A stretch of DNA of 64,000 nt from Herbaspirillum sp. SJZ106 (GTDB taxonomy: Bacteria > Pseudomonadota > Gammaproteobacteria > Burkholderiales > Burkholderiaceae_D): NCBI RefSeq assembly GCF_006715495.1, contig NZ_VFNI01000004.1, positions 1 through 64,000 of the forward strand, written 5' to 3'. A model generated the notes under the pieces. The model did not search any database and was not told the DNA's origin. It saw only the letters and a program-made list of their open reading frames with translations. The position numbers were made by a program, and so were the translations under genes. Of this stretch, positions 608 through 17,677 are shown in pieces; the first letter of the stretch is position 1; every line of letters begins with the position of its first letter.

Positions 608-611
608 TCGG

Positions 612-920: not shown

Positions 921-1085
921 GATCCAGTCAGTTATAAATCAGCTATTTTTGCCCATACCCCCAAAAAGTAAAATTAGCTGAAAGATCGGTCCACACCTGC
1001 TCGTCTTTCATTCAATAAGTTACGTTCATTCCTGCCACAATTTCCGCAATCCCGGTCGACCCTCAAGTTTGTGCGCAGCGCAGCT

Positions 1086-1343: not shown

Positions 1344-1365
1344 ACTATAGTTCTACATACTATGA
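1341..1365. promoter_or_regulatory. Candidate operator repeats in the XRE promoter
   Basis: Two direct copies of CATACTAT (1341-1348 and 1356-1363), 15 bases apart, sit in the divergent region between the XRE regulator and the gene at 1445. They overlap a TATAGT-like -10 for the regulator on the minus strand. Direct repeats at this position are typical of autoregulating XRE repressors. Inference only. Confidence 0.3.
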
Positions 1366-1444
1366 TTAGCATAATATGTTGAGGGCATGTTCGTTGTTAT
1401 TGCCTACGGGTGAATAGAGACCAATGAAATAGTTATAGGCAAAA

Positions 1445-1711
1445 ATGGAAATAAGCCAGATTCGTCCTCATTCGACTTACATAGGTGACGATGGCCTTGT
1501 TAGGGAGGTGAGGTCTGTGGTGATGGCCGTGGACGGGCGGCTATATGTCGAGTGGCGCCTAGTCAAACTTACTCTTCCAGAAGCATGGGCAAAACGGAAG
1601 AACTACGAGCCTATTGATCAATTTGCTGCTTGGGCGACGACCATGACTGCGACGTTATCAGCGGATCTTCAACATCATTTGAATAGCGCGCCGCTACACC
1701 CATCTGTTTAA
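1445..1711 (+). CDS. Hypothetical protein, 88 aa
   Basis: A small soluble protein, divergent from the XRE regulator and therefore possibly regulated by it. The first half alternates short beta-strand-like segments (YIGDDGLVREVRSVVMAVDG, then YVEWRLV), which suggests a small beta-barrel or SH3-like fold. The C-terminal half is Ala/Thr/Leu rich. I do not recognise the family. The region from its stop to 1899 holds only a weak open frame (1772-2023) that I reject. Confidence 0.45.
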   Translation: MEISQIRPHSTYIGDDGLVREVRSVVMAVDGRLYVEWRLVKLTLPEAWAKRKNYEPIDQFAAWATTMTATLSADLQHHLNSAPLHPSV

Positions 1712-1899
1712 CTATCTATCTGGGACCGTTGGTGTATTGTCGTCGGAGCCAATGAATTTTGCCTTCAGTGGATGAGGCCTGTGTGTGGATGGTGCCCTCA
1801 ACGAATACTGTATCTATTCAGAAATTGCGACCATTTTTCCAACTACAATCGACACTGTGGCTGCCGACTTCAAAGAGTTCTAACGTTAGGCTCGCTATC

Positions 1900-3561
1900 T
1901 CACTTCTTCCCAGGTAACCAGATCGTGGCTCCAGATTTCGAAATCTCAAAATCAATCTTATTTAATTTTTTCGGCAATGAAGCGAAGGCTATCAGTTGGT
2001 TATTTTCAGCCGATGACTTCTGAAAGATTTCACGTCTTCGTGCCGGATTCTTCAGAGCGGATTCAATCTTCGCTAAATAAAACTTCAGCCCCGGGCTCGC
2101 GGCCTTTTCAATGGTTAATTTTGCATCAGCAACCACTTCGGCGGCCCAGTCGCATCCATGGATAACAGCCTCCCTTGCGTGAAACACCTTTGCCGCTGCC
2201 GCAGATAGCTCGTTATGATGGCTGTCTAACGTTGACGTTGCTTTGTCATAGAGCATGCGTCCTTCAATCGCCATTCCACGGCGATAATACAGAAGACCCA
2301 AATTGGCCAGAGCGTGCTGAGATTCCAATCGGTTCTGAATGAGGGTTCGCAACTCACGCTCTATTCGCTCCTGTTCCTCAAACACCTTTTCCTCTGGCAA
2401 GCCAGTCCAATTGGACGAAATCTCGGCAAAATACTTATTGAGTCGCAGAGTAATATCGTCTGGATTTGCACGCAGTCCCCAGTTGGCGGCTTCCAAACCT
2501 AGGTCATGGTCATCCAGTAACTCAAAGACGAAAGAGAGCATTGTTGCCGGCCTTTTTGAAAACGGCTCTTGCGCCAACCATTGACTGGCGAACTGTCTCG
2601 CACCAAGCAAATCGACACGGTAGTAGCTTGCCCAAAAATTTGCCTCAAATGCGCCATGACTCTGATCAAGATGTTGATCAGTTTCAAAGTCGGCTTTTAG
2701 ATGGCGTTCGGCCCATTTCAATTGCGCCAGCGAGTTTTCAGTTGGACTCAAAAGGGCCTGGGCAAAATACTTACGGGCCCGACGATTACTGCCGCTTTCA
2801 ATTTCTATTGTGCCGACGGCACAGGCTAATTCAGATAAATGAACCGGTGGAAGCCTACCTTCCAGAAGATTTTTAGCTCTCTTCCAATGCGTTGGAGATT
2901 TTCCGTTAGCTTGGGCAATAGCGATTTCCGCCGCGAGCATCCACGGATCACTTCTGGTCAGTGGATGATTAGCAATCAGATGGTGCGCCTTATCTTTCAT
3001 CCCGCTGTGAACATAGAAACGCGCGGCCATTCTGCTTATCCATCTATTTTTCCCACCGTAGGCCAAAGCAGTTTGAATTGAACGATCAGCCTCTTTAAGT
3101 TTTCCTACGCTGGCATATTCGCGTGCTAAGTCCACCAAAAGCACTGAACTTTTAGGATCAATTGTTAAAAGGTGTCGAAGCCTTTTTATATTTGGGCGGC
3201 TCTTCTTAGAAAGATCTAAATCCAGTTGTTGCTCAGGCACCTCGCCCAAGATTTTTTTTGCGAGTCTACGTAAGGGGGCTGGCACATGATCGTGTTTTAA
3301 AACGAATGATGCAGCATCTATTGCTTTGTCTTTTTGACCACTGAGCACGGCGTTATTAATTGCATCGGCCGCGAGACCTATACTCGGTTTGGCCGAAAAA
3401 TCCTCGAGGAGATCATTCAAATCATTGACTGCTGGCCCTAGATGCGCCCTCTGAACCTCCGTACTTGGCAAGGGCTGGATCTCAGAGCTTTTGGCGGCAG
3501 CTGCAGCTGCACGCCACAAAGGCAGTACTCTCCGTTCTGAATTTTCACTGAATCCGCTCAT
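1900..3561 (-). CDS. Helical-repeat (TPR-like) protein coupled to a protein kinase
   Basis: A 553-residue protein dominated by paired helices with TPR-like spacing. Clear examples are near residues 140-170 (LLVDLAREYASVGKLKEADR), 175-205, 255-285 and 420-450 (ALANLGLLYYRRGMAIEGR). There is no signal peptide or membrane segment, so it is probably cytoplasmic. Its ATG overlaps the stop codon of the upstream kinase gene (ATGA, 3558-3561), so the two are translationally coupled and probably act together, with the repeat protein as scaffold, substrate or target recogniser. No defined family is recognised. It lies among other candidate defence genes. Confidence 0.65.
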   Translation of the reverse strand: MSGFSENSERRVLPLWRAAAAAAKSSEIQPLPSTEVQRAHLGPAVNDLNDLLEDFSAKPSIGLAADAINNAVLSGQKDKAIDAASFVLKHDHVPAPLRRLAKKILGEVPEQQLDLDLSKKSRPNIKRLRHLLTIDPKSSVLLVDLAREYASVGKLKEADRSIQTALAYGGKNRWISRMAARFYVHSGMKDKAHHLIANHPLTRSDPWMLAAEIAIAQANGKSPTHWKRAKNLLEGRLPPVHLSELACAVGTIEIESGSNRRARKYFAQALLSPTENSLAQLKWAERHLKADFETDQHLDQSHGAFEANFWASYYRVDLLGARQFASQWLAQEPFSKRPATMLSFVFELLDDHDLGLEAANWGLRANPDDITLRLNKYFAEISSNWTGLPEEKVFEEQERIERELRTLIQNRLESQHALANLGLLYYRRGMAIEGRMLYDKATSTLDSHHNELSAAAAKVFHAREAVIHGCDWAAEVVADAKLTIEKAASPGLKFYLAKIESALKNPARRREIFQKSSAENNQLIAFASLPKKLNKIDFEISKSGATIWLPGKK

Positions 3562-4691
3562 GACGCCTTCTTAATTTTCACCTGTGCTTGCTTAGCCAGT
3601 AAGTCGAATCTGGAGACATATCGTTCCATTCCTAGGGGATTATTTGCTTGGCGTCGTGATTCAGGGGCGCCGCGTTTCGTGAAATCCGGGGCGCACATTT
3701 GCTGAAGCATTACGGTCAGATCTTCTCTAGCCCACACAGGAAACATTGGATTAACCTCGGCTACAACCTTGGCAAAGGCGGCTTCCAAATGAGGTAACAC
3801 GTCAGCGTACCTACCGTGCCAATTCATGAAATGAAATTCAGGGGCCAGATGTTGTTCGTACAACAGAGTGTTTGTAGACATGCCCGTGAAGAGATATGTC
3901 ATGAGAGAGCCGAGGTGATACAGATCAGAGGCCTCCCGCCTATCTACCCAACTTGTAGGTACCTCTCCATAGGACAGTTCTGGCGGCGCATATCGGCTAT
4001 CACCTGGGATGCTCACATTATCATGCGGCGCGGGAGCTTGTTTGCTTGACGCTCTGCCTAAATCACCGATCTTCGCGCCGTTATCCTTGAAAATAAGAAC
4101 GTTCGCGGGTTTAAGATCTTGATGACAAATTTGATTTGTGTGAAGTTGCTGGAGACCAACGGTCACAGAGTGAAGGTGTGTGAGGCGCCAATAATCGTCT
4201 GCGATTTCCGTTTTCAAAATAAAATTGCGAATATCACCATCGTCTGCAAGCTCGAACATCAGGTAGGGCACAGGAAAAGGGGCTGCGGAAGCCACGCCTG
4301 GTGGCGGCGAGGCGTAACCGACCTGTAGAACTTTAACAATCTTGTCGAGATTGCTATTTTTGCAAAACTCAAGCAACGAGTTTTCGGACAGAAATGCGCC
4401 CGAGAGATCTGCGACCGCTAGCATCATCGTTGTTGGATCTTTACGATTTCCATTTCGCATAGTTATCGCGGCTTCGAGATCAAACGCTTTTAGGAAAGCG
4501 CGCTCCTTACCTTTTACTGCACGATAACCGACGCTAAAGAAACCAGGTGTCAATTCCTCGTTGGCTGCCTTCGGCTTTGTAAGCTTTTCAACGATTTCCC
4601 AGCCGTCTTCGACCGTTACTCCTACAAGAAGGTGAGCTGGAAAACTAGGTTCTGTTGCAGGAGTGGCCCCATTTGCTTGCGACACGGTCAT
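3558..4691 (-). CDS. Hanks-type Ser/Thr protein kinase, soluble
   Basis: A 377-residue eukaryotic-like kinase. Visible motifs are the ATP-anchoring Lys68 in AFLKAFD, the hinge region YLMFELADDGD (residues 143-153), the catalytic loop HQDLKPANV at 190-198 (catalytic Asp192), the metal-binding DLG at 210-212 in place of DFG, and the APPE motif at 235-238. HQD replaces the common HRD, as in many bacterial kinases of the non-RD class. There is no transmembrane segment or PASTA domain. It heads a two-gene operon with the overlapping TPR-like gene. Kinases in bacterial defence islands can arrest growth on infection; that role here is inference from context only. Confidence 0.8.
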   Translation of the reverse strand: MTVSQANGATPATEPSFPAHLLVGVTVEDGWEIVEKLTKPKAANEELTPGFFSVGYRAVKGKERAFLKAFDLEAAITMRNGNRKDPTTMMLAVADLSGAFLSENSLLEFCKNSNLDKIVKVLQVGYASPPPGVASAAPFPVPYLMFELADDGDIRNFILKTEIADDYWRLTHLHSVTVGLQQLHTNQICHQDLKPANVLIFKDNGAKIGDLGRASSKQAPAPHDNVSIPGDSRYAPPELSYGEVPTSWVDRREASDLYHLGSLMTYLFTGMSTNTLLYEQHLAPEFHFMNWHGRYADVLPHLEAAFAKVVAEVNPMFPVWAREDLTVMLQQMCAPDFTKRGAPESRRQANNPLGMERYVSRFDLLAKQAQVKIKKAS

Positions 4692-4880
4692 TCGATCCCC
4701 TTATTTGGCAATCATTTTTTTGTCAATTAACCAAGAATTACGCTAGAGCTAGCATAGCATCTACTTTGGAAAAAATAATTGCAAAATTGGCAAATCTAAT
4801 TTGATTGTCCACAGCGGTCTGCAAACTCAATATTGCATAGCTGACTTGGAGATCTCCTTTGCGGTGGGATTAGAGGCAGA

Positions 4881-6263
4881 TCAGCGCGGATATTGAAGCT
4901 GCCGAGCTTCCGGTTTCAGTACTCCACAGTTAATAAGTCCTTCGATGTCATTGGGGCGGCCGGAAAGCGCTTGGGTAGCAGCCGCCAAGTGAACTTCTTG
5001 CCATCGCGCCAACTCAACTGGGTTATCTGCAAAATCAGTTGGAGTTTTTATGGAACGACTGCTCCAAACCTTGACTGCGGAAATAGTGAAGGGTTGTTTC
5101 AGATCCGGTGATACATAGTCCCTGCGTTCTTTGAGAATGCTAGCCAATTCATTTGCCTGTCTTTGCAGGTCGGCTGGAATGGGCTCTCCCGCCAACTGTC
5201 TCGCGTGTACCAAAGCACGTGCCTTCATCGATGTCAACCCCGGCAATATGAAGTCTCGAAGCACGAAGTAATATTTCAATTGCTCTAGCATCGCGACTTG
5301 TGCTGCTTGATAGGTCGCTTTTTCGTCATCCCTGTGTGATCTAGCCATTCCCTTGCAATAGCCGGATAGTTCAGTTATTAGCCGGTCTTCAAAATGGCGT
5401 GTCATTTCAGCGGCGATCATCGATTGGCGAAAGTCTTCGCTCATCAACTTTGAGAGACTATTTATTTCGCTCCAAGCATTTGAGTCTAGGAGTACCTCAA
5501 CCTTTTCGATCTGCTTCTCGATCTTTTCCAGATTCACGCCGGCGGGCTCAATACAAGAACTCTTCAGCTTCGCCGAGAATGTGAAAATATTGTCGACGAG
5601 GAGGTTGTTGCAAGCAACATAATTGCTCCGCAGATCATCGGTGAGCTTAACGAAGGTTTGAAGCTCCTGAATTGATACGCTTGTCCGTTTGTTTTTAAGG
5701 CTCGTCTCCTGATGGAATACATAGACGCATGTAGCCCCCAGCGTCAAAGCAAGTACCCCGACCATCGCACGTATCGACCATTGCCGAAGGGAGAGTTGGC
5801 GGAACCAGTCCTTGTAAAACGAGTGCTGAATTCTTTCGTGTAGACCAATTTGGTCGGAGATTCTGTCCCATCCCCAGACATCAACCTTACATTTTCCTTC
5901 TACAGAGCGTTTCTGTGAGATGTCGATCACGTACTCGTGGAGCGATATATCGTCGCTTGCAGTCGTCAGTATGATCATCTCGTGGATGGGTACTGGCAGC
6001 GTCTCGATGCTTTTAAGCGCGTCGTCCACGTCAGATTTGGTGAGTTTCCGTCCCAGGGCGGTACTGCGCCCTTTACATTGAAGTCCAATAGTTCTGCCAT
6101 CTCTGCGCATCAATATCGCATCTAGGCCGTTCTGCCGCTGACCACCTCGTCCCCATCGTTGGAATTGTTCGCCAAACACTTCGCTAAGCAACGCACGGCA
6201 CAGGCGCTCAAAATGCTGCCAGTCTTTCGGTCTGAGATAGTCTACGGATTGCGGTGAAGTCAT
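4881..6263 (-). CDS. Membrane-anchored Mrr-like restriction endonuclease fused to a helical domain
   Basis: A 460-residue protein. Residues 10-140 form a PD-(D/E)XK-type nuclease domain with Asp48 in NGLDAI and the Gln-x-Lys variant Gln62/Lys64 in GLQCKG, the arrangement seen in Mrr-type enzymes, followed by VWGWDRISDQI. A single hydrophobic helix follows (about 165-184), then a long helical, partly coiled-coil region (190-460) with two or three Cys residues. Nuclease plus membrane anchor plus helical sensor is an architecture common in anti-phage effectors. It stands alone, with 190 bases to the kinase gene and 267 to the next gene upstream. Target and trigger are unknown. Confidence 0.7.
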   Translation of the reverse strand: MTSPQSVDYLRPKDWQHFERLCRALLSEVFGEQFQRWGRGGQRQNGLDAILMRRDGRTIGLQCKGRSTALGRKLTKSDVDDALKSIETLPVPIHEMIILTTASDDISLHEYVIDISQKRSVEGKCKVDVWGWDRISDQIGLHERIQHSFYKDWFRQLSLRQWSIRAMVGVLALTLGATCVYVFHQETSLKNKRTSVSIQELQTFVKLTDDLRSNYVACNNLLVDNIFTFSAKLKSSCIEPAGVNLEKIEKQIEKVEVLLDSNAWSEINSLSKLMSEDFRQSMIAAEMTRHFEDRLITELSGYCKGMARSHRDDEKATYQAAQVAMLEQLKYYFVLRDFILPGLTSMKARALVHARQLAGEPIPADLQRQANELASILKERRDYVSPDLKQPFTISAVKVWSSRSIKTPTDFADNPVELARWQEVHLAAATQALSGRPNDIEGLINCGVLKPEARQLQYPR

Positions 6264-6490
6264 ATAGATGCGAGCTAATTTCCATTGGGAAATAACATGT
6301 TGCCACTATCTCATGACAAATGGAACCTTGTGGACTTTTCATTGATGCTCTGTACGCGGGCTGATGAAGGTGAAGGTCAGCAATCGTCTAAAAATCAAAA
6401 ATGGTGGCAGGCGCAGATATTCAGTCGTCTAGGACTGCCTTTTTAAGTGCTTGTAACGACCGATCAGAGACTTGGTAAGTGAAGATTGCT

Positions 6491-6521
6491 CGTCGTTGGC
6501 TTTGAGCTCAAGCCAACGACG
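6491..6521 (-). terminator. Hairpin behind the 6531-7955 gene
   Basis: A perfect 12-bp stem (CGTCGTTGGCTT with its complement at 6510-6521) and a 7-base loop lie ten bases after the stop codon of the minus-strand gene ending at 6531. There is no strong T run after it, so it may be a weak or Rho-assisted terminator or a 3' stabilising structure. Confidence 0.5.
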
Positions 6522-6530
6522 ATGTATATC

Positions 6531-7955
6531 TCAATGATTGACAGATGAATACGGGTGCCGGGCCCGGAAATATGGATGAGACTCGGGTTCGATGAGTGGC
6601 GGAAGTGCATCTGGGCAGCCATTTTGAAGCGCTAAGCCATGTCGAACCAGCCTGAGACGTGACATTAAGCGATAGCGTTCGTCTGTTAACGCAGAGGAAG
6701 AGTCAAACCATTGTTCTTCGACTGAGTTGATTGCTTGTTGAAGTCGATTCTCTTCTATGTCGAGGAATTCTTTAGTTTGGCACGCATAGTAAACTGCAAC
6801 CGGAAAGTCGAAGGCGCAAGCGGCGGGCGAAAACAAGTGCGATTGATGCTCACTGTCCCTGTAGTTCCATTCGTTCCAAATCTGATATGCCAAACGAGAC
6901 ATTTTTGCAAGAGATTCATCGCCGCCAGCCGCTCTGAAATCAATCATCATTTGGGCGAAAGGGGCAGCGCACTTACCGAAATGGCTTAGCATTGGGGCAC
7001 GGAGAAATGCTAGCCACTGCGATTCATCCATCGATGATAACTCCAGTGCTAAGGCGTTTTCAATGAGTGAATAGCCACCGGGATACCTTAAGAAGGCACG
7101 CATCCAGCTCTCCCAGTCTTTCTTCGAATTATCCGCGACTTGGTGCAAAATCTCCCCCAGCGGTGCATCCCAGCCTGCCGGTATTTGTTGTCTGTGCTCA
7201 TGGACAAATGACGCCAAGCAAGCGAATTTGAATCCATTGTTTTGGACGTCTACTGCGAACCGGAGTGCTTTTTCCCGAAGAATGTAGTTCACCACGCCGG
7301 ATAGATTGATGTCGTTTTTCGTCTCAATGACCCGGGCCAGGGTATCTGGAAATGACGCGTGAAGAAGTGTCACAATGGCTGAGATATCACCGCCTGGACC
7401 GAAGAAAAGATGGTGAAATCGAGGCAGAAGCATTTCGTACCTACTTTGCTGCGCATAGTCTCTTGCATCGTCATGAGCCTCGCGATGTCGCTTGTCATCT
7501 AGAAAGGGCCTAAACATAAATTCCGACAGGAGGGTTTCCAGTCCCGAGCGAACAACTTCTGTGACAATCGCAGTCGCTACATGTGCCAGGCCTCTCCCTT
7601 GGACGTCAAGTACATACGCCGCCGTGACAAGGGTACGTAGCCCTTCGTTGCTATGAGAGTTCCCGTCTGCACCCCAGCTCTTGATCTGGTTTAAGATCCC
7701 CCGAACTGCGCCCACCCATGCCTGATGAATAGACTTATTTGGAGCATAGCCGCGCTGAAGTGCTTCGGGATACGGCACTTCTACGCGAAGTTCGTCTCCC
7801 ATTGAGTTCAGATCTGGAGTGAATGAAAGATCCTCCTTGAGCGCGTCTAGCACTTGAGCTGGCGCAATGAGAGGAGTGATTTCGCCATGTTCCAGTGCAC
7901 ACTGAAATCCATGAATTGCAGCGCTTTCTGCTTCAAGACTCATTTGCTTTTCCAA
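6531..7955 (-). CDS. Unknown helical protein, partner of the PLD-like gene
   Basis: A 474-residue soluble protein with no family I recognise. It is rich in Trp, His and aromatic residues and predicted mostly helical from its pattern; there is no signal peptide or membrane helix. Its start overlaps the 3' end of the upstream PLD-like gene by 16 bases (7940-7955), so the two are translationally coupled and likely form one functional unit. A terminator-like hairpin closes the pair. In this setting it may be the sensor, regulator or second subunit of a two-gene defence system; this is inference from coupling and location. Confidence 0.6.
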   Translation of the reverse strand: MEKQMSLEAESAAIHGFQCALEHGEITPLIAPAQVLDALKEDLSFTPDLNSMGDELRVEVPYPEALQRGYAPNKSIHQAWVGAVRGILNQIKSWGADGNSHSNEGLRTLVTAAYVLDVQGRGLAHVATAIVTEVVRSGLETLLSEFMFRPFLDDKRHREAHDDARDYAQQSRYEMLLPRFHHLFFGPGGDISAIVTLLHASFPDTLARVIETKNDINLSGVVNYILREKALRFAVDVQNNGFKFACLASFVHEHRQQIPAGWDAPLGEILHQVADNSKKDWESWMRAFLRYPGGYSLIENALALELSSMDESQWLAFLRAPMLSHFGKCAAPFAQMMIDFRAAGGDESLAKMSRLAYQIWNEWNYRDSEHQSHLFSPAACAFDFPVAVYYACQTKEFLDIEENRLQQAINSVEEQWFDSSSALTDERYRLMSRLRLVRHGLALQNGCPDALPPLIEPESHPYFRARHPYSSVNH

Positions 7956-9592
7956 ACAAGATATTCGTCGGAATCAAGAGCTTCCCACAGGTCTAGGAAC
8001 GCTTGGCGGATCAACTCGCCATCCTGAACTTTCTGAAGGATATGGTGCTTGCGGCCAAGACTATTAATTGATGTGCCTAAGGACCAAGCTATGGCGCCTC
8101 CCGTGGCGCTAGGAAAAATTAAGAATCGGTCATGGAAATCCCATCCAGCGTGGCCTTTGCGAACCCGGAACTCGAGGCTTAACCCATTTTCGTTTCCTTT
8201 GGCATCTTCCAGTCTTTCATGCTGATCGTTCTTCCAGGTGCTATCTGCGTCGATATCACCTTTTTCGCATTTGCAAGTCGGGAGCGGCTTACCTGCTGAA
8301 AGTGCTCTTAAGTCTGAGTTGGCATGTTCATTGTAGAAAAGTGTTTCAAGGATATCGTCGGCGTCCAGGTAAGGGTCCCATAACCAAGCGCCGTGCTGGC
8401 CATGCACTCGGAATAAAAAGCGAATGTCTTTAATGGCCTGCTCTCTGTTCGCACCAGACTGCCCTCCGTATTGAACAAACTCTTTGCGTTCCTTCAATTC
8501 ATGCAGGCTGTTACTAAAGATTCGACGTGAACGCCAAGGCTCGTGGGGCTTGAACGGGGAGCTGCCAATCTCGGATGAATGCGGTGCAGTGGTGATGGGT
8601 ATCCAAGTCTCTTCCAGCTCCCCCTGTTTGGATGGAATCGAAAATTTTCTTACGTTTGATCCAAGTGTGGAGGAGTTGAAGTGGATGCCAAATGACGTGA
8701 AGAAAAAAGTCTTTGCCGATGCTCCAAGTATGAGCTTATTAGTATCGTCCCACATGACATAGCGAGGACCTTCACCAGGAGCTGTGACGGAGAATCGTGC
8801 CATACCTTCAATAACATCCTTGGAGTCGAATCCCTCAATTACGCTGTCCTCATATTTTTCGCAGGAGATGCGCAACACTCGTGGATTTACATCGGGATGC
8901 CAAACAGGCTGAACACCATACGCTCCGTCTTCGTCACGGCTATTTACTACTGAGGTGATGACGGTAACTGGAAGCTGAATAACGATATTGCCTAGCCGGT
9001 CAGAAAGGCCATCGATACTCATTTTGGCTATAGGACGAACATACTCCGCCAAGCGGCGGAGATGTCGTGGCTCTTTGAGTAGAAACTGTACATCTATTTT
9101 TGTGCGGTCGAAAAGTTCAAGTAAATGTGAGCCTTCCCAGAAATTATTCTTCAAAAGTGAATTCCACGGATGTGGATCAATGCCATCGCTCGGAACGAAC
9201 TGGGGTGGAATGGCGGCCAATTCTCCAATGCCAAGAGATACGCCCTTCGGACTCCATTCGGAGCTTGAATCCAACGCCCGCAGCGCATCAAGCAACTGGT
9301 CGGGAGAAATTCGGTATCGTGCAACTCCAAAGCTCCATGGAGTGTCCCGAAGTTTCAACCTTTTAGCGAGAAATGAGAAACCTGTTTCACTAGGTGCTGC
9401 AACCGCCTCGGCGACGAGCAATGAGAAGAAATTTACCGGTGTCTTTGGGGAATCTGCGTGGAAGCCCAGAAGTTCCGTGACCTCGAAGCTACGATAAAGG
9501 CCAATGACCGTAGGTTCTAGAAGTTTCTGCAACCGTTCGATATGCTGCGCCACTCCCCAGACTGGTGGGGCGACTCCTCCATGTCGCATCAC
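7940..9592 (-). CDS. VPA1262-like protein with a C-terminal phospholipase-D-like domain
   Basis: A 550-residue protein. The last 150 residues carry PLD-superfamily features: WLWDPYLDADDIL, His487-Asp488-Arg489 followed by hydrophobic residues (FHDRFLIF, a variant of HxK), then WSLGTSINSLG about 15 residues on. Only one such active-site half is evident, so a homodimer would be needed for catalysis, as in other one-motif PLD nucleases. The N-terminal 400 residues are beta-rich and recall the VPA1262-type N-terminal domain named after a Vibrio parahaemolyticus island gene; that match is from memory. It overlaps the downstream partner gene by 16 bases. A nuclease effector of phage defence is the likely class. 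Confidence 0.6.
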   Translation of the reverse strand: MMRHGGVAPPVWGVAQHIERLQKLLEPTVIGLYRSFEVTELLGFHADSPKTPVNFFSLLVAEAVAAPSETGFSFLAKRLKLRDTPWSFGVARYRISPDQLLDALRALDSSSEWSPKGVSLGIGELAAIPPQFVPSDGIDPHPWNSLLKNNFWEGSHLLELFDRTKIDVQFLLKEPRHLRRLAEYVRPIAKMSIDGLSDRLGNIVIQLPVTVITSVVNSRDEDGAYGVQPVWHPDVNPRVLRISCEKYEDSVIEGFDSKDVIEGMARFSVTAPGEGPRYVMWDDTNKLILGASAKTFFFTSFGIHFNSSTLGSNVRKFSIPSKQGELEETWIPITTAPHSSEIGSSPFKPHEPWRSRRIFSNSLHELKERKEFVQYGGQSGANREQAIKDIRFLFRVHGQHGAWLWDPYLDADDILETLFYNEHANSDLRALSAGKPLPTCKCEKGDIDADSTWKNDQHERLEDAKGNENGLSLEFRVRKGHAGWDFHDRFLIFPSATGGAIAWSLGTSINSLGRKHHILQKVQDGELIRQAFLDLWEALDSDEYLVWKSK

Positions 9593-9609
9593 TATGCTCT
9601 CCTTATTTT

Positions 9610-9639
9610 AACTCCCGGATGCTATGGTAACCGGGAGTT
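9610..9639. promoter_or_regulatory. Inverted repeat in the divergent region 9593-9682
   Basis: A perfect 9-bp inverted repeat, AACTCCCGG and CCGGGAGTT, is separated by 12 bases and lies between the divergent PLD-like and acyltransferase genes. It starts 18 bases upstream of the PLD-like start codon. It could be an operator or a leader hairpin; it lacks a T run in either useful direction, so a terminator is less likely. Confidence 0.35.
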
Positions 9640-9682
9640 CATACTTCTGTGACAACACGGGCCGAGAATGTATTTATAAGAC

Positions 9683-10879
9683 ATGAGATGGTCTGAAGAG
9701 CTTTTGTGGCCGTGCTACCATCTCCTGATGGCCCCAAACGAACGTACCAATGACACTTCTCGCTATGAATTGAAGGTCGCTGACTCACTCAGCGAAGTTG
9801 ATAGCGAAGCCTGGCAACGATTGACTCAAGGCAACCCATTCGTAGGCTACGGGTTCCTAGATGGTCTCCAGCGAACCGGCTGTGTAGACCCTACCACTGG
9901 GTGGTATCCCAAATTCCTATTGCTGTACCGTGACGGTTCTCTCGTCGGTGGGGCGCCGTGCTATTTCAAGACTCACTCACGAGGTGAATTCGTCTTCGAC
10001 CACAGCTGGGCGGAAGCCTTTCAGCGTCATGGGGTGCAGTATTACCCCAAGCTTGTAGTCGCAGCACCATTCACGCCTGTACAGGGACCACGTCTACTTG
10101 CGCTCGACGGCGAGGCCCGTGCGGCACTGGCGCAGGGAGTCCTCGCACTGACCAGGTCCGGCTCTGCGTCTTCAGCGCACGTGTTGTTTGTGGAGGATGA
10201 GGATAGGGACGCCCTGCTAGAGGCTGGCTTTATGGTGCGCGAGGCCGTCCAGTTTCACTGGACAAACGCGGGCTATGAGACGATGGAGGCTTTTCTCGCT
10301 AGTTTGAACCAAGATAAACGCAAGAAGATTCGTCAGGATAGTCGATACGTGGCTGAAGCGAATATTCAATTCAAATGGCTGGAGGACGAGGCCTTGACCA
10401 GAGAAGATATTGAGTTCTTCTACGAATGCTACTGCAATACCTATAAAGAGCACTGGTCGTCGCCGTATCTGAGTCTGGAATTCTTCCTGGAGATGCACGA
10501 GACTCGTTCGCTGCATTTCGTATTAGTGTTGGCGCAAAGGGACGGGATCCGGGTCGCTTGTGCTCTAAATATCCTGGGCACCGACGCTCTTTACGGTCGC
10601 TATTGGGGCACAACCGAGTTCTCGAAGGGACTTCACTTTGAGACGTGCTACTTGCAGGCAATCGCCTACTGCATCAAGAATGGCGTGGCAGCGTTTGAGG
10701 GCGGCGCCCAGGGCGAACACAAAATGGCCCGCGGCCTGTTGCCGACAAAGACGTATTCAGCCCACTGGATTGCGGACAAACGCTTCGCCGACGCCATCGA
10801 GGACTTCCTCGGCCGGGAGGCGGAGGCTATAGACGGGTTCGTCGACCAACTTGAAGATAGTTCGCCTTTCAGGAAATAG
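9683..10879 (+). CDS. Complete PF04339 (FemAB-like/GNAT) acyltransferase carried by the island
   Basis: A 398-residue protein of the COG3146/PF04339 predicted N-acyltransferase family (older name peptidoglycan biosynthesis/recognition). Family hallmarks are NPFVGYGFLDGL, the YFKTHSRGEFVFDHSW segment, DKRKKIRQD near residue 215, GRYWG, and the C-terminal FEGGAQGEHKMARGLLP. An alternative start at 9728 is possible; neither has a clear ribosome binding site. The stop overlaps the recombinase gene tail to tail by 11 bases. It belongs to the same family as the host gene broken at 17253-17531 but has diverged from it, so it probably supplies a replacement copy. Biochemical substrate unknown. Confidence 0.8.
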   Translation: MRWSEELLWPCYHLLMAPNERTNDTSRYELKVADSLSEVDSEAWQRLTQGNPFVGYGFLDGLQRTGCVDPTTGWYPKFLLLYRDGSLVGGAPCYFKTHSRGEFVFDHSWAEAFQRHGVQYYPKLVVAAPFTPVQGPRLLALDGEARAALAQGVLALTRSGSASSAHVLFVEDEDRDALLEAGFMVREAVQFHWTNAGYETMEAFLASLNQDKRKKIRQDSRYVAEANIQFKWLEDEALTREDIEFFYECYCNTYKEHWSSPYLSLEFFLEMHETRSLHFVLVLAQRDGIRVACALNILGTDALYGRYWGTTEFSKGLHFETCYLQAIAYCIKNGVAAFEGGAQGEHKMARGLLPTKTYSAHWIADKRFADAIEDFLGREAEAIDGFVDQLEDSSPFRK

Positions 10880-12263
10880 TGGGTATGTCCTTTTTCTTTC
10901 TGCTCGTCGTGAGACTCGGTGCTGACTGCGCTAGCTCAATGGCTTTTCTCATTTGAGAAATTACCTCTCGTTCAGCCTTCAATTGTGCACGCAGATTTGC
11001 ATTCGCAGTAAGTAGTTCGTGTTTTTCAACCTTCATCTGCTGAACTTGTCGGGAAAGCTTCTCACCTTGAGAACCATTGCGCACACGAGTGATTGCGCGA
11101 AGATAGGATTTTTGCGACCCCATGCTCAAATGCCCCGCCTTTTCTTGTACAGCAGCAGCAACTTCTTGGTATGTGATAGGAAAATTTATGGCAAGACGAT
11201 ACTCGAGCTCCGCCACAAACTGATCATCTAAAAATTTTCGCCGAATTGAATGGGATGCTGCTCCTATTGGAGCTCCAGCCGCCTTGAACGCTTTGGAAAA
11301 AATGCGTACCCAAGTGTGTGTGCTTAACGGTGCGCCGGTTTTTAAGCTTAAGAACACAGCATGTTTTGCAATCGATTCGTTGGCGCCAGTTTTCCGCAAA
11401 ATAGCCTTTCTGCCGGATGAATCATCCTCGCAGTACGCACGAATGGCATGAGCAAGCTCCCACGGCACTGGAAACGGGAAGTCGAGCTCGCCTTTTTGAA
11501 AAGGAGGGACAACTATATAAGTGTCAGAATCTTCCCGCCTAGCCAGGGCTTCTGCCGAAAACTGATTTGTGGTGAGAGAATTCGTGCTACTTATTCTTAA
11601 GCCTAGAGTATCCATGATCGTCAACATCATCGAGTTTCTCGTTGAGATGGTGACGTTTTCTCTTGACCAGAAGTGATCATCAATGGCAATCAGCTCATCA
11701 TCCGTAGCCCAATGCTGAAGGGCTTTTGTCTTTCCTGCAGCTTTTCTTTTGTATCTAAGTGGGTATTTTCTGACGGCTGTGTTATCAGTATTAGTGCCGC
11801 CTGTGATCAATCTGGGTAGCGTACTAGTTATTAGGGCGACGTCGGCATTGCCAATCGTGTACGGTGGCAGCAGTGCTTCTGATTGGCTCCAGTTGAGGAA
11901 TTCGTAAATGATAGTAAGCTGTCGATTGACCGTTTGGTACCAACTTGTTTGTTGAGCACGGCTTCTAGGATTGTTCTTAACCACCTCAAACTGGTTGTCT
12001 CTGAATCGCTCCAAAGCCGAGTCATTGAATTTCGCGAGCGGCAATTTTTCTTCAAATAAAAACTGAGCAAGGGCGTTTAGGACGTAGACGCACGGTTCCA
12101 TTTCAGATTTTGATGCGGAGGTAGATTTGCGCCCTTTGAAGTGTGTCTCGACAAGGTAGTCAAGATAATCAGTGAATACGGGAATTGTCTTGCCGGCACC
12201 ATCTCGAACCGTCGCCGTAAGGTAGCCCTGATATTTTCCCCAATGGACAGTGGTTAAGCTCAT
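10869..12263 (-). CDS. Tyrosine recombinase, canonical catalytic residues (last gene of recombinase operon)
   Basis: A 464-residue site-specific recombinase. The catalytic set is visible: Arg223 in LGLRISS, His338 and Arg341 in SHSIRRKF, His378 in AGHLS and nucleophile Tyr387 in KSYLRAI. A basic coiled-coil tail (about 400-445) follows the catalytic domain, unlike phage integrases. It is the fourth gene of the leftward operon, five bases behind the small coiled-coil gene. It is the best candidate for the strand-exchange enzyme of the island. Size and partners fit the GmtY-type recombinase of gamma-mobile-trio islands, from memory. Confidence 0.8.
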   Translation of the reverse strand: MSLTTVHWGKYQGYLTATVRDGAGKTIPVFTDYLDYLVETHFKGRKSTSASKSEMEPCVYVLNALAQFLFEEKLPLAKFNDSALERFRDNQFEVVKNNPRSRAQQTSWYQTVNRQLTIIYEFLNWSQSEALLPPYTIGNADVALITSTLPRLITGGTNTDNTAVRKYPLRYKRKAAGKTKALQHWATDDELIAIDDHFWSRENVTISTRNSMMLTIMDTLGLRISSTNSLTTNQFSAEALARREDSDTYIVVPPFQKGELDFPFPVPWELAHAIRAYCEDDSSGRKAILRKTGANESIAKHAVFLSLKTGAPLSTHTWVRIFSKAFKAAGAPIGAASHSIRRKFLDDQFVAELEYRLAINFPITYQEVAAAVQEKAGHLSMGSQKSYLRAITRVRNGSQGEKLSRQVQQMKVEKHELLTANANLRAQLKAEREVISQMRKAIELAQSAPSLTTSRKKKDIPTIS

Positions 12264-12268
12264 GGTTG

Positions 12269-12892
12269 TTATTTTTTTCTTTGAACGGTTTTCAACGGCG
12301 AAACTTTATTTAGGCTTTTCGTTAGATTGATATTATCTTCAACAACAGCCTCAAAGTCCCTACGTAACTGTTCTTCATTGTTTTTATATCGCCGTTCATC
12401 TCTCTTTATTTCACTATTTAGGTGTCTCACTTGCATCCGCAATTCCCGAATTTCTTCTTCCTGAATTGAATTGATGCTTTCTAAGTGAGAAAGCCTCTGC
12501 ATGAGTTTGGCAATGTTGTTACTTTTGTTGGTCTCTGCTAATTGGAACTGAGCCTTTTCCTTAAGTTTGTCAATAAGGAGTAAGCAGATGTTGCGCGTCG
12601 TAACGTGATATGCCTTATCTTGCGTAGAACGGCTCACTTTCTTTAGGTCAGAGAGAAGGAAAGAATCTTTTTCAAACTCAAACTTCGTGTCGGCCAACGC
12701 AGCGCCATACTCTGTGCCAGTCCATTCAGCCAATGCCTTGGTATCTTTAGGAAAGTAAACTAACGATATTTCTCCATCAGAATCGCGTATTAGCTCGCCA
12801 TCATCCGTTGTGTTCCAAGGTATACCGTCACGCAGCCACGATTTAAGAATCGCTTCTCGTGCCTGCATCTGTCTTGTGGCTGGCAGGGTCAT
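12269..12892 (-). CDS. Small coiled-coil accessory protein of the recombinase module
   Basis: A 207-residue soluble protein. The N-terminal half is mixed (LKSWLRDGIPWNTT). Residues about 115-195 form a long, charged coiled coil with heptad leucines (RLSHLESINSIQEEEI onward) and a basic end. The ATG overlaps the stop of the upstream integrase (ATGA at 12889-12892). Small coiled-coil proteins of this kind (TnpC of Tn554, GmtX or VPA1267-type proteins) accompany multi-recombinase elements and may help DNA or partner binding. Assignment is by position, size and coiled coil, not by a defined motif. Confidence 0.6.
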   Translation of the reverse strand: MTLPATRQMQAREAILKSWLRDGIPWNTTDDGELIRDSDGEISLVYFPKDTKALAEWTGTEYGAALADTKFEFEKDSFLLSDLKKVSRSTQDKAYHVTTRNICLLLIDKLKEKAQFQLAETNKSNNIAKLMQRLSHLESINSIQEEEIRELRMQVRHLNSEIKRDERRYKNNEEQLRRDFEAVVEDNINLTKSLNKVSPLKTVQRKK

Positions 12893-15231
12893 TCCGTTTC
12901 TCCCAAATCTTTATTAAAGTACTGCGAGTACGATTCAATAAGCTTTTGAGTTTCTTCAGAAATCAAACAATCTTTCCTATAAAGCTCCTCATATTCTTCA
13001 GCCTCGCGCAAAAGTTCCAGAGCTAATGCTGGAGGGGTGGTGTCAGAGGCAGCCTCGGTCCGCATGTTTGCTGCTTCGTCGAGGATGTTTTTTTGATAGT
13101 TAGCGGTGGTCCATGAGTGAATGCATCCGTGGCAGACATGAGGTGTCGCATCTTGTCTTCGAAGTTTCCCATGTCTTGCACAATTAGCGGAGGACACAGT
13201 CTGTTTGGCGTCGCCAGCGGCGCAGGCGACATGCGGTAGCGGTGTAATAGCGTACCCGTCTTTTTCCAATTTCTCAGCAAGCCGATGCGATTGACGCTCT
13301 AGGGAAAGGGCCGAAAAGCTGGCTCTTGAGGACAATCGTTGCGCTAATTTAATCACTGTCCTCGGGAATAGGCCACCTACGCTTTTCCCTCTAAATAGGT
13401 CTTCAATTAGTTCGGCGAGATACCTTGTCCCTTCATTTTTTATGTTTTTCAAGAGACCGGTGGCGTCGACGTCCAAATTGCGAGGATGAATCTCGATGAC
13501 TGATTCTCCAGGCGTCCGCGAATGCTTGTCGGTGCCGTAGTGAAGTAGCTGCGCGAAGCCTTGATGGCCTAATTGACGAGCTGCTGCCGGAAGCTCAGGC
13601 ATGTCGTAGCGACGTAAGAAGACCTGCACGTACATTCTACGAAAAGGACTGCTCTTTCCATCAAATTTTGTGGGATGGACACCGGCACGCGAAAACAAAT
13701 GTTTGGAGTATTCCGAATATGGAACGGTTATACGAGTATTGGCTTGAAGACCCGTGGACGTGAGGTGACGACGGGTAAATAGTTGCATTTTGCGAAGTTT
13801 GTTTTTCTCATCGATAGAAGGAGGGAATTCTTCTCCGATAGCGCTGAAGATTCTATAGAACCTCTCTAGCAACGAAACCGCGTCAGCTACAAGACCATTA
13901 GCAGGAAAATTCCTCCAGGTTCGAATGCCTTTTTCCACCCAGAACTCAGAACTATAGGCTATAGCCTCGTCGTCAATAACACGAACACATCCATAATATG
14001 CGCCATACGGAAGGCGATTTCCGCCATAAATTTCTTTTGCTCGACGAGCGTGGTTGATTCCAATCAACTGACCACAGGAGACCATGGAGAAAAAGACATA
14101 TGACATATAGTCGGCTTCCTCAAGTCCCGGGCCTCCGCTAGGAATTACTCCTTCAGCGACAAGCGCCTGTATGCGGTCGCTGCGGATCTGCCTTATTTTT
14201 GTGTCGCCATGTTCTCGATCATAATGGCCGGTCTCAATAAGTTCGCGTACTTCTTCAAGAACAGTTGCAATTTTTGGCCCATAGTCAAACAACCAAGCAA
14301 AGCATTCACGGATTATCAGGATAGTATCTCGTGGCTCAATGTTCGGAGTCTGCTCGTGGCGGTTGTCGATGCGGCTTGATGTTGAGGCAGACGCGCTTGC
14401 AAATGGCTTGAAGTGGAGGCCATCAATTTCACCTCTTGGATTTGCCATCAAATTTAGGGTGGTGGCAGTTTGCAGCGTCTCCGTACTGGATGGATGACGT
14501 CCCTTTGTGACTATCTGGCCTGTCGACCTTTTGTCACCTGCTCGGAGAGCAATTTCATTTCTGAACCAATCAGGAATAAATTGAGGATTTATGGGAATTA
14601 CAAGCGCTTTGTTAAGTTCTTCTAGATTCAGGCAAAAGGTCTTGCTCAAGCCAGTGCCGACGAATTTGGTCGCAAGCGTTGGATAAGTGTCAATTTGCTG
14701 AAGAATTCCTCGAAGCTTTTCTTCTACTTTGTTAATTTTGAACCAAGAATGTTGAGCGACGTCGTCAAGCAATTGGGCTGCGTCTGATTTTTCTATGTCT
14801 CGAAGCCAATAGATTCCGCTGTTGACTAGCCAATTCAAAATGTTGTGTGAACTCCGCCAAATGGCGCCAAGATTCTGCGATAGTTGACCAGTGTGGTATC
14901 TCTCGCAGCAGAGATTGAGGTTTCGCTTTAATGCACCAACTAAATTTGGAAAATGGGTGAGCGGAGTTGGGCCTTGGTAAATTCCGCCTAGTTCTTTGGT
15001 GCAGTCTAGTTTGATTCTATCAATGTCAAATGTTCGGAAAAATTTTCCGGGTTCGGAAAAATTCCCAGTGTCAATTACGACTTGATTCGAAGCCCACGAG
15101 GATATATACCGTGCATGACGATTAAGCTCACGCGGAAAATCATCGACTAGCGTGATCGTCGGTAATGCGTTATTGGGAGGTGAGATCTGAATTTCAACAT
15201 TGGAGTGATGAAGACGTTCCGAATTTCTCAC
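12889..15231 (-). CDS. Large integrase-like protein with C-terminal Cys cluster
   Basis: A 780-residue protein whose C-terminal half keeps a tyrosine-recombinase outline: PFRRMYV near 529-535, RQLGHQGFAQLLHYG with His556 and possible nucleophile Tyr565. After it comes a zinc-finger-like set Cys670, Cys684 and Cys700-His-Gly-Cys703. Cys-containing tails occur in TnpB-like recombinases of Tn554-type and related multi-integrase elements. The start is GTG at 15231, overlapping the stop of the upstream gene (GTGA), and the stop overlaps the next ATG. This tight coupling suggests a fixed-ratio complex. Probably the GmtZ/VPA1269-type member, by size and order only. Confidence 0.65.
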   Translation of the reverse strand: MRNSERLHHSNVEIQISPPNNALPTITLVDDFPRELNRHARYISSWASNQVVIDTGNFSEPGKFFRTFDIDRIKLDCTKELGGIYQGPTPLTHFPNLVGALKRNLNLCCERYHTGQLSQNLGAIWRSSHNILNWLVNSGIYWLRDIEKSDAAQLLDDVAQHSWFKINKVEEKLRGILQQIDTYPTLATKFVGTGLSKTFCLNLEELNKALVIPINPQFIPDWFRNEIALRAGDKRSTGQIVTKGRHPSSTETLQTATTLNLMANPRGEIDGLHFKPFASASASTSSRIDNRHEQTPNIEPRDTILIIRECFAWLFDYGPKIATVLEEVRELIETGHYDREHGDTKIRQIRSDRIQALVAEGVIPSGGPGLEEADYMSYVFFSMVSCGQLIGINHARRAKEIYGGNRLPYGAYYGCVRVIDDEAIAYSSEFWVEKGIRTWRNFPANGLVADAVSLLERFYRIFSAIGEEFPPSIDEKNKLRKMQLFTRRHLTSTGLQANTRITVPYSEYSKHLFSRAGVHPTKFDGKSSPFRRMYVQVFLRRYDMPELPAAARQLGHQGFAQLLHYGTDKHSRTPGESVIEIHPRNLDVDATGLLKNIKNEGTRYLAELIEDLFRGKSVGGLFPRTVIKLAQRLSSRASFSALSLERQSHRLAEKLEKDGYAITPLPHVACAAGDAKQTVSSANCARHGKLRRQDATPHVCHGCIHSWTTANYQKNILDEAANMRTEAASDTTPPALALELLREAEEYEELYRKDCLISEETQKLIESYSQYFNKDLGETE

Positions 15232-17234
15232 GCAAGTTTCCTTTCGTATTTCTCAAGCAGTCGACCGTGGGGGCTGGCTAAGATGACATTTCGAAGTGCG
15301 CTGCAAAATGCAAGGCGTGGAAAGTGAACTCGCAGAAAACGCAGCGGATTCTCTTGCAAGAGTTTCTGGTAATTTTTCCTGTAAAAGCGATATTGGTAGG
15401 CGCAAAACTGGAGTTCGGCTACGCCTACCTCAAACTTTTCGATGGTTTCTTCGAGCCATTGATCGGCAACAGAAGGTGCATTTGAATTGGGGGATGCGGG
15501 GAATAACGCTGCTTGGACATCCTTTTCAGATAGGCCGCGGTTAGCTAATTCGCTGCCTCGGCCGCACACGAAGAGCGCCGTGGCCTCCAATTTTTTCATA
15601 AAGCGCCGAGTGTTAGCTTCCAACAGTTCGACAAAGTGCGCGCTTTCTAAGTAAATTCTAGTAATTTCAGGCGATGAGTGGTCAAGCAGTGCTTGCACAG
15701 TGAAGATATTTCCGCCTTCAGATAGATAGTCGATTCGGGCCCCAAGCTTTCGCAATGCTGATAACTGAAAACGCTCGTAATGGAACTTTTTAAAAAATGC
15801 TATTAAGGTCTTGGCAATGGGAAGTCTTTTGACTTCTGTTTTGCCAACTTTCTTTCTGTGTACCACAGAAAATAGCGGGTTATCGGGAATGCCCGAGGTG
15901 AGTGATATTTGCACATCATTTGCGAGCAGCAGCTTGATAGCGGTTACCGCAGTTTTGTCCTTAATACAAATATCCTTGGAAACACCACTTATTTGGGCCT
16001 CATTCTTAGAGTTATATGTGGAGGTATCATCGTCAATTTCTGCTTTCATCAATGAATCAGTTTTTCGCTTTACACCGACAAGGTAATATTTGTGGCCGCG
16101 CACGACGATATTCCGGGCTGTCAAGCTAAGGGCTGTTTCAGAATTCCAAGAAGTCTCAGCCAGAATGGAAAATAAGCATGTGAGTACCACCATGCTGGGT
16201 AAGTAGTGTGTAGAAATCAGAATTTCGTACATGCATTCCAGCGTCTCTCTTTCCGCATTTGTGCGGAGGAGTGGAATTCCGGTTACATCAACGCCCTCGG
16301 GCTTCGAAAATGCAAATTCCTCTTTTCGACTGAGCGTGGCAAAAATCCGAAGTTGCTCTTCTGTGGACAACTTTCGCAAGTCTCGGCTAAAGCGAACAAG
16401 GGTATTTACTGTAAGCGGTCGTCGAACCATCTGGTGTAGTCGACTATCGGTTAGGTCTGGAAAGCCAAGATCTGCTGCGGCATTTATGGCATTCTTCGTG
16501 TTCTCATAGTCTGCAAAAATTTTGTCGCATACTGCGTTAAAACCCTCCCGTGTTTCGAGCAAATTTTTCAGAATTTCCCCATTACGTTCTCTGAACGAAT
16601 CAAAGTTTTTCAAAAAAGGCTTGTCCAACAGGTTTTCCTTGCCCTTGTCTGCAAGTTTCATCGACTCCCTGTTATCGTCAGTTGGACGGGAAGGGAATCG
16701 GCTGTTGAAGCCAAGGACGGCTATGGGTGTTCCATTTGGATATAGCGCCTGCGTTTGGATGAAGGCAGTTCTGGCGATGAAGGATATTGCGCCCTTCCAC
16801 TTTGCAGGTAATGAGGCCACATAGTCCTCGATAAGATACATAAGCTTTGGAATTTCCCAGCCTTTGCAATCATGAACCGACATCCGAACAATTTCCAAAA
16901 CCTCCGGATGTTGCTCGCGCAATTTGAGAAACCTTCGCAGACCTGCCGCGCATGCATAGGTGAATGGACAGGGTAGGCCGTCTAAAACATGAAGCAAGAG
17001 CGAGTCCGTATTAATGTTGAACGGCACAAGGTCAAACTCGACAACGCTAATCCATTCCTCCGCGTGAACTTGTCTTGTTGTTATTAATGCAGCACTTGTA
17101 CATGTGCAAGCATGCGATTGGTGACTTTTGAGTTTTTTCTTCCGTTCTAACAGGCCACTTGGTGATTTGGAAAGCCTCTTAAAGTCCCTTTTAATCGACT
17201 CTAAAATCAATTTCTTGTTTTCTTCTGTATTCAC
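15228..17234 (-). CDS. Tyrosine-recombinase-like protein with altered catalytic residues (first gene of operon)
   Basis: A 668-residue protein. The C-terminal 300 residues align by eye to the tyrosine recombinase fold: strand Lys392 in VKRKTDSL, Arg495 in SALRKLGARI, His519 in LLDHSSPEIT and Tyr528 in RIYLES. However, the first catalytic Arg appears replaced by Asn364 (TSWNSETALSL, where TGLRxSE is expected) and the His of HxxR is Ser492. It may therefore be a structural partner or a specialised recombinase. Start codon is GTG with weak AGG upstream. It begins 45 bases inside the island end, so the operon promoter must lie at the junction. Confidence 0.7.
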   Translation of the reverse strand: MNTEENKKLILESIKRDFKRLSKSPSGLLERKKKLKSHQSHACTCTSAALITTRQVHAEEWISVVEFDLVPFNINTDSLLLHVLDGLPCPFTYACAAGLRRFLKLREQHPEVLEIVRMSVHDCKGWEIPKLMYLIEDYVASLPAKWKGAISFIARTAFIQTQALYPNGTPIAVLGFNSRFPSRPTDDNRESMKLADKGKENLLDKPFLKNFDSFRERNGEILKNLLETREGFNAVCDKIFADYENTKNAINAAADLGFPDLTDSRLHQMVRRPLTVNTLVRFSRDLRKLSTEEQLRIFATLSRKEEFAFSKPEGVDVTGIPLLRTNAERETLECMYEILISTHYLPSMVVLTCLFSILAETSWNSETALSLTARNIVVRGHKYYLVGVKRKTDSLMKAEIDDDTSTYNSKNEAQISGVSKDICIKDKTAVTAIKLLLANDVQISLTSGIPDNPLFSVVHRKKVGKTEVKRLPIAKTLIAFFKKFHYERFQLSALRKLGARIDYLSEGGNIFTVQALLDHSSPEITRIYLESAHFVELLEANTRRFMKKLEATALFVCGRGSELANRGLSEKDVQAALFPASPNSNAPSVADQWLEETIEKFEVGVAELQFCAYQYRFYRKNYQKLLQENPLRFLRVHFPRLAFCSALRNVILASPHGRLLEKYERKLA

Positions 17235-17240
17235 TCAATT

Positions 17241-17273
17241 ACCTATCAAAACTCATACAATATTTTTGATGGT
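17241..17273. repeat. Imperfect inverted repeat near the island end (candidate recombinase core site)
   Basis: ACC(T)ATCAAAA at 17241-17251 and its complement TTTTGATGGT at 17264-17273 are separated by about 12 bases. One extra T breaks the symmetry. Paired 10-11-bp arms around a short spacer are the layout of tyrosine-recombinase core sites, and the repeat lies within ten bases of the host-gene junction. It also sits where the promoter of the recombinase operon should be. Confidence 0.4.
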
Positions 17274-17531
17274 ACATAACTTCACGTATTCGCCGTAGGA
17301 GTGCGATTTCAGGTACAGGGGCAGGGCGCCGGCCAATTGCTCTTCATGCCAGACGGTCAGGAAATGCGGTTGCCAGCCGGTTTCGGCGCAGGCTGCGCCA
17401 CTTTCGTGCAGCGCGTGCAGGAAAGCGTAGGAAAGGAAGGGATTGGCTTCATCCTGGACGGCAACCAGGCCGTCCCATGCCGCTTGGCCGATCTCGGCCA
17501 GAGAAGAAACGATTCGCGTGCGATAATCCAT
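17253..17531 (-). pseudogene. N-terminal fragment of a host PF04339 acyltransferase gene, cut by the island
   Basis: From the ATG at 17531 the frame reads [16 protein letters not shown], then [16 protein letters not shown] and [11 protein letters not shown]. These are the N-terminal hallmarks of the PF04339 family, with the high GC of the host. After Gly-Glu-Tyr-Val (about 17280-17284) the sequence turns AT-rich and the frame ends at 17253 after nine unrelated residues. The intact family continues Phe-Asp there and is about 380-400 residues long, so roughly three quarters is missing. It is divergent from nadE. The remainder should lie at the other island end, left of the window. Confidence 0.85.
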
Positions 17532-17677
17532 TGACTGCAATTGAGGTAGCGTTGCCTGTTTCTTCGGTTGCCATTTGCGCTTGCCGCAGCAAGGCATCGA
17601 ACAGGCATTCTACGCAAAATGAAAAAACGCGTCGCAGGCGCGGCAAACGGATGCCATCAGGCAGCGGAAAATACGAC

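Follow-up and report, generated by a model that had tools for sequence, protein, structure and literature searches.

A genomic island in Herbaspirillum sp. SJZ106 that resembles the GInts (genomic islands with three integrases; Bardaji et al. 2017, PMC5385486) is inserted into the single-copy FemAB_like (PF04339) gene of its host and carries a complete homologue of that gene, which most likely supplies the activity lost through the insertion. The window, that is, the whole 64,000-nucleotide stretch analyzed here, is C4:1-64000 of a 4.58-Mb genome assembled in 14 contigs. Its features are collected in Table 1.

Table 1. Coordinates of the island, its junctions, the genes discussed, and one split gene from a related element (window positions unless a contig or locus is named)
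Feature	Location	Strand	Remarks
Candidate defence pair PDC-M71A (kinase-like, 3558-4691) and PDC-M71B (1900-3561), cargo	1900..4691	-	
VPA1262_N-type protein, 550 aa, cargo	7940..9592	-	NCBIfam NF040700, E 4e-77
On-board full-length FemAB_like copy, 398 aa	9683..10879	+	PF04339, 463.2 bits, positions 1-369 of 369
Last integrase of the operon, 464 aa	10869..12263	-	PF00589 and XerD, sub-cut-off
Small gin protein, 207 aa, coiled-coil-like	12269..12892	-	Homologues in other FemAB elements
ginB-like gene, 780 aa	12889..15231	-	Relatives at 22-28% in nine other elements
ginA-like gene, 668 aa, first gene of the operon	15228..17234	-	Relatives in three other FemAB elements
attL: left arm GGCGAATAC (17294-17286) and crossover hexamer GTGAAG (17285-17280)	17280..17294	-	
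N-terminal part of the split host FemAB_like (PF04339) gene	17286..17597	-	PF04339 positions 1-71
attR: GTGTTC-GACTGGGCC	C10:49970-49956 (L004:4971-4957)		
qmcA of G078, N part	C49:50082-50637		
qmcA of G078, C part	from about C49:137541		

The split host gene and its island

A PF04339 profile search covering all contigs of the genome returned three pieces. Profile positions 1-71 match C4:17283-17504(-) (E 2.9e-23), within an open reading frame (17253-17597) that continues past the host gene part into island DNA; positions 71-368 match C10:49089-49970(-); and the remaining piece is the on-board copy (C4:9785-10876(+), E 8.1e-139). An earlier note, made from the sequence of the window alone, had stated that the family match ends after Gly-Glu-Tyr-Val and then gives way to island sequence. 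The search agrees, placing the end after Gly-Glu-Tyr(-Val): in the host sense, the window side reads GGCGAATAC, then GTGAAG, then island DNA beginning TTATG. The C-terminal half, predicted by the same note on the minus strand, was found on C10, where island DNA ending CATAA is followed by GTGTTC and GACTGGGCC; the predicted Phe-Asp start is present there as Val-Phe-Asp. Joining the host flanks yields GGCGAATACGTGTTCGACTGGGCC, which at the protein level joins GlyGluTyr to ValPheAsp, the Val-Phe codons forming the 6-bp overlap. The two halves of the split protein share 93.0% identity with the intact gene of an island-free congener (G174), in which the anticipated empty site is present: the joined flanks align with it (L088) in one piece across the join, at 92.5% over 5734 bases. 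Short imperfect direct repeats and site-specific insertion, both GInt traits, are found here in the unequal attL and attR, in the four elements described below, and in this empty site.

Contig C4 begins at window base 1. Another 4788 bases of the island are located on C10, and a further island stretch between the two contigs may be absent from the assembly. The GC content is 0.48 for the island part (window 1-17279) and mostly about 0.6-0.7 for the host part, from 18 kb on. A short AT-rich 3' end is a published GInt trait; the last 347 bases of the window element have a GC content of 0.398, and the last 350 bases of the related G320 and Paraburkholderia tagetis elements have 0.469 and 0.497, respectively. 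When the island ends are joined, inverted arms (ACATAA/TTATGT) can be picked out by eye about the 6-bp overlap (window 17280-17270, L004:4972-4983), and similar, partly matching arms were seen by eye in the three other elements found in FemAB_like genes. The island cargo includes proteins matching PDC-M71A and PDC-M71B in PADLOC (E 3.9e-100 and 8.6e-97) and, on C10, SIR2 and HerA proteins.

Four genes, encoding 668, 780, 207, and 464 aa, run inward from the split gene. The earlier note had called all four recombinase genes; the four-gene operon stands, but one member encodes the 207-aa protein, and the other three are assigned from weak matches or from motifs picked out by eye. The profile of the 668-aa protein matches a XerC-like structure (E 0.0034) and a XerA chain (0.01), amid unrelated hits of like weight. 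The 464-aa protein matches PF00589 (E 7e-4) and a XerD model (E 2.6e-4), both below the cut-offs, and a comparison of its profile with solved structures gave no match. The 780-aa GinB-like protein, for which searches of Pfam and of structures gave no match, appears recombinase-like from motifs picked out by eye, and the 207-aa protein has only a weak TPR-nucleoprotein match, below the cut-off.

Related elements and their insertion sites

GinB was found in 8/392 genomes of the family and 2/369 of the class, the own genome being counted in each case; at the order level, GinA and the GinB profile were each found in 1/399 genomes, the own genome only. An alignment-based scan of the genome_contigs collection returned three loci, in Massilia brevitalea (G369), a metagenome-assembled genome (MAG; G1084), and P. 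tagetis, of which only the last was additional to those above, and a scan of the same collection with one protein as query returned none. Viral contigs gave no match in the gin search; among plasmids there were no matches for GinA, three distant ones for GinB, and one for the last integrase. In total, ten gin-type elements were collected, including that of the window.

Four of these elements lie inside PF04339 genes, namely those of the window, G320, M. brevitalea (G369), and P. tagetis. The N parts of the four split genes end at profile position 70-71. Three of the C parts begin at 69-71; that of G320 has a match reaching back to 55, into residues that the island encodes. At the DNA level, all four host genes break after GGCGAATAC and resume at GTGTTC. 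Moreover, in all four elements a full-length PF04339 copy and the last integrase are arranged tail-to-tail, with anything from a 20 bp overlap to a gap of about 30 bp between them (an 11-bp overlap in the window element). In G320, whose island is about 57.5 kb long, a single contig holds both gene halves and the on-board copy. Given the kinship of the four elements, their agreement does not represent four independent events.

The six other gin-type elements (G014, G150, G185, G078, G055, and G1084) are sited elsewhere, at comM, qmcA, and other places, and their GinB proteins are 20-30% alike. No PF04339 gene was found in any of these six elements, in the stretches read; their whole genomes contain one full-length PF04339 gene each, with weak partial matches besides in G078, G055, and G1084. 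The distribution of four in four against none in six has a chance of 1 in 210 by arithmetic, a figure that is no strict test since the elements are related. The earlier note had asked whether such recombinase operons always sit in or next to PF04339 genes. In its favour, three further elements use the same codons and carry a copy; as a limit, six gin-type elements sit elsewhere. The pairing is a property of the elements found in a PF04339 gene, not of all gin operons.

A comparison of open reading frames of at least 100 aa at E 1e-8 (15, 28, 64, and 16 in the four elements, with those of G369 and P. tagetis represented by partial stretches and that of the window including its gap) revealed that, apart from the on-board gene, only the four gin genes belong to families common to all four. 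Beyond these, the cargo differs, in line with the variable cargo that follows the operon end in GInts. A RecD2-HHH-type protein occurs in three of the four elements, and G320 and G369 share two further pairs. The RecD2-HHH-type proteins, of roughly 700 aa (L015:13009-15099, L016:12299-14377, and L043:4940-7036), are encoded downstream or upstream neighbours of none but the small gin gene and the last integrase gene, which flank them, and their Pfam match to the RecD2 HHH-like domain is above the cut-off in L015 and below it in L043; the window element is without such a protein. The gin proteins of the four FemAB elements are 22-46% identical. In trees, G369 and G320 are sisters for GinA, GinB, the last integrase, and the on-board gene, and the branching of the 207-aa protein is not resolved. 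The gin proteins of G1084, an element at another site, are not placed clearly outside those of the FemAB elements, and this placement suggests that the target or the on-board gene may have changed during descent.

The cargo of two of the FemAB elements was also inspected. That of P. tagetis (L053:9874-19994) is defence-dense, with matches to candidate PDC-M01A/B, Lamassu LmuA/B, and DISARM DrmA/B/C side by side. The G320 island (L025, L026) encodes a DNA polymerase III alpha-type protein, a TsiV-type immunity protein, an ABC transporter set, and TerY/STK_OB proteins.

Among the elements at other sites, the gin operons of G014 and G150 adjoin comM-like genes that are without their N-terminal part (L017:5072-6439 and L018:7372-8754). 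The gene comM is linked to competence. No second comM was found near these elements, in the 18 and 14 kb read. The G078 element, about 87 kb long, splits qmcA, a member of the SPFH family (L020 = G078:C49:47001-67000; L164:10538), and carries a slipin-type SPFH gene adjoining ginA. This slipin shares 68% identity with another slipin of the host and 38% with QmcA, and since it is nearer to the former, a replacement of qmcA by the slipin is not demonstrated. The idea that gin elements in general bring the gene they target was considered and is unsupported by the comM elements and the G078 element. Further pairings of target and on-board gene may exist among gin-type elements, the qmcA element with its SPFH gene being a case to compare.

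The on-board gene and its target

The earlier note had placed a full-length, diverged family member inside the island beside the recombinases, and had read GEFVFD in it at the spot where the host gene is split. Both observations were confirmed: the encoded protein spans the entire PF04339 profile and exceeds its curated cut-off of 27. The predicted fold, modeled from three sequences with a mean pLDDT of 74 and poor around the target site, is nearest to FemX, with MprF-type transferases among the next hits. A simple scan for a sigma-70-like promoter around the gene found none. For the function of PF04339, the cited source holds one table entry, which gives a failed prediction (PMC3223725).

The on-board proteins of the four elements are 48-62% identical among themselves and, on average, 47-51% identical to the host genes. 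In a tree of 94 proteins, including 54 intact host genes of the family, the four split genes, and the four on-board copies, the latter form one clade (100/98), sister to a host clade (100/99) that unites the 54 intact and the four split genes. The split genes of the window, G320, and G369 group with close relatives, that of the window with G174, and the split gene of P. tagetis, a member of another genus group, lies at the edge of the host clade. This placement identifies the split genes as native to their genomes and the on-board copies as a lineage apart. In three on-board pairs, differences amount to 63-66% at third, 30-35% at first, and 19-28% at second codon positions, a pattern that reveals purifying selection on the on-board gene. 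As regards long tolerance of the insertion, the split host genes have a third-position excess like that of intact pairs (three of four tested); they thus still look constrained, and the insertions look recent.

The target gene is widespread and nearly always single: PF04339 is present in 274/294 genomes of the family. Only five of the 294, the genome of the window included, have multiple matches, and 20, mostly small genomes, have none at E 1e-10. A renewed search of the other four multi-match genomes and of five low-scoring ones yielded one further full-length paralogue (G234), and no further split near position 70 was found in these nine genomes. Sixteen plasmid records contain PF04339. Of four examined, two from P. 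aeruginosa and one from Sphingomonas have chromosomal-looking neighbours, and the fourth, an Enterobacter record, holds a fragment. This unannotated PF04339-like fragment (L153:12001-12344), in two pieces covering 28% of the query, sits among insertion sequences on an Enterobacter cloacae IncF plasmid. Phage records gave no match to PF04339.

Within the target, the stretch HSYGEYVFDWAWA is exact in 53/55 intact host genes read and in all four split ones. All four split hosts and 19/54 intact genes (the class-level gene L027 being excluded from this count) match the left arm together with the overlap (GGCGAATACGTGTTC) exactly, which, the hosts being related, is only suggestive of a target bias toward an exact left arm and overlap. 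With respect to a 24-bp target core, 54 of the 55 intact host genes have 0-4 mismatches and one has 6, and the on-board copies have 5, 6, 8, and 8. All four on-board copies have GTC or GTT in place of GTG in the overlap and a right arm without TGG, and on account of these changes they look like poor insertion targets. At the protein level, Tyr is replaced by Arg and Trp by His or Gln, at residues that are the same in 59/59 host genes.

Evolved resistance to self-insertion was considered as an explanation and is not claimed here. Thirty distant relatives are as divergent, with 1-12 mismatches to the core and SQGEY[VI]FDH in 15/30; of 152 host-conserved columns, 13 are changed in all four on-board copies and 101 are unchanged in all four, and only two of those 13 common changes fall at the target site. 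As judged from these alignments, the on-board state at the target site may be ancestral.

The proposed mechanism begins with a circular form of the element, which would recombine over the 6-bp overlap at the Val-Phe codons of HSYGEY-VF-DWAWA; Pseudomonas GInts are known to excise and to form circles (PMC5385486). The host gene would be inactive while the island is integrated, and the on-board homologue, as a fifth core gene beside the four-gene operon, would perform the same job and so cover the loss, which would be why the element keeps its copy. Precise excision would restore the host's own gene. An imprecise deletion that took away the copy-bearing part of the island would deprive the host of the function; the copy may thereby also stabilize the island. 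A more far-reaching version, 'break and rescue', in which the rescue copy is insertion-resistant and non-precise loss is punished as a form of target-gene addiction in a recombinase island, is a tentative proposal.

The on-board gene could instead be ordinary cargo or a single capture from a host, without a role in tolerance, and shared by the four elements through common descent. A single gain would be enough, given the kinship of the elements and the grouping of their on-board copies in one clade, and the genes that GInts take up are known to come mostly from related bacteria (PMC5385486). However, the on-board gene is the sole gene besides the four gin genes in all four elements, and other cargo differs. 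Purifying selection has preserved it while identity among the gin proteins fell to 22-46%, it is akin to precisely the gene that the insertion interrupts, and none of the six elements sited elsewhere carries it, all of which makes this account unlikely. These sequence comparisons suggest that the copy is a core gene of the element and not random cargo.

Somewhat less probable again is that the on-board protein serves the element in a separate role, perhaps in the envelope or in competition, that its family is shared with the target by chance, and that the split gene is dispensable. The absence of PF04339 from 20/294 family genomes indicates that the gene can be lost, and the 13 host-conserved columns changed in every on-board copy would fit a new function, yet 101 of the 152 columns are unchanged in all four and the predicted fold is whole, and a gene functionally unrelated to the target would not have to go along with its insertion site. 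As for an assembly artefact, the halves lie on different contigs in 3/4 genomes, but with both halves and the copy on one contig in G320, flanks that match the congener on both sides of the join, and a break point that recurs in four genomes, such an origin of the split is hardly credible. We therefore regard the supply of the lost activity by the on-board homologue as the probable explanation. The reading in the earlier note, of an element that targets a conserved codon stretch and brings its own version of the gene, is thus largely supported; that host function is kept would follow from the conservation of the on-board gene.

Comparison with known systems

The island shares with GInts, as these are laid out in the cited description, a four-gene operon at one island end with one small protein and three that are tentatively recombinase-like, cargo right after the operon, short imperfect end repeats, one fixed chromosomal site per element type, and a 6-nt crossover with unequal attL and attR (PMC5385486). 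This likeness is drawn from the published layout. The gene order here (recombinase, recombinase, small, recombinase) differs from that of the published GInts. The sites described there are gene ends, gene starts, or intergenic, and the target is spared by position or driven by an outward promoter (PMC5385486), whereas the present element interrupts the interior of a gene and brings along an entire homologue of its target.

Other islands also repair what they interrupt. Islands and prophages specific for dusA integrate inside a conserved protein gene, and island sequence makes good the loss; according to the cited account, however, they possess one integrase and give the same gene a new 5' end (PMC4482086), unlike the four genes and the separate, diverged, whole homologue found here. 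Islands in tRNA genes likewise restore the gene they split, although there a gene fragment at the junction, not a separate whole gene, is described as restoring it (PMC4383910). The defence-carrying GInts of E. coli (the Tn6571 family) resemble the present elements in bearing anti-phage defence genes on a GInt-type element; they occupy other hosts and sites, and the cited text describes no target-gene replacement (PMC10121019). In the open-licence literature, no FemAB-like target and no whole replacement gene on an integrase island were found. Islands that furnish their target with a new end are already known; for a complete and separate homologue of the target among the core genes of such an element, the search of open-licence papers gave no report.

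In most cases, site-specific islands keep damage low either by inserting at gene ends or by reconstituting the end of the gene they enter. A carrier of a whole gene can use the interior of a conserved gene that is present in 274/294 genomes of the family. These elements also suggest a search rule, namely to look for single-copy genes split by recombinase operons that are accompanied by a diverged on-board copy. If the rescue is real, it would explain how the island is tolerated and would give it a built-in penalty for partial deletion.
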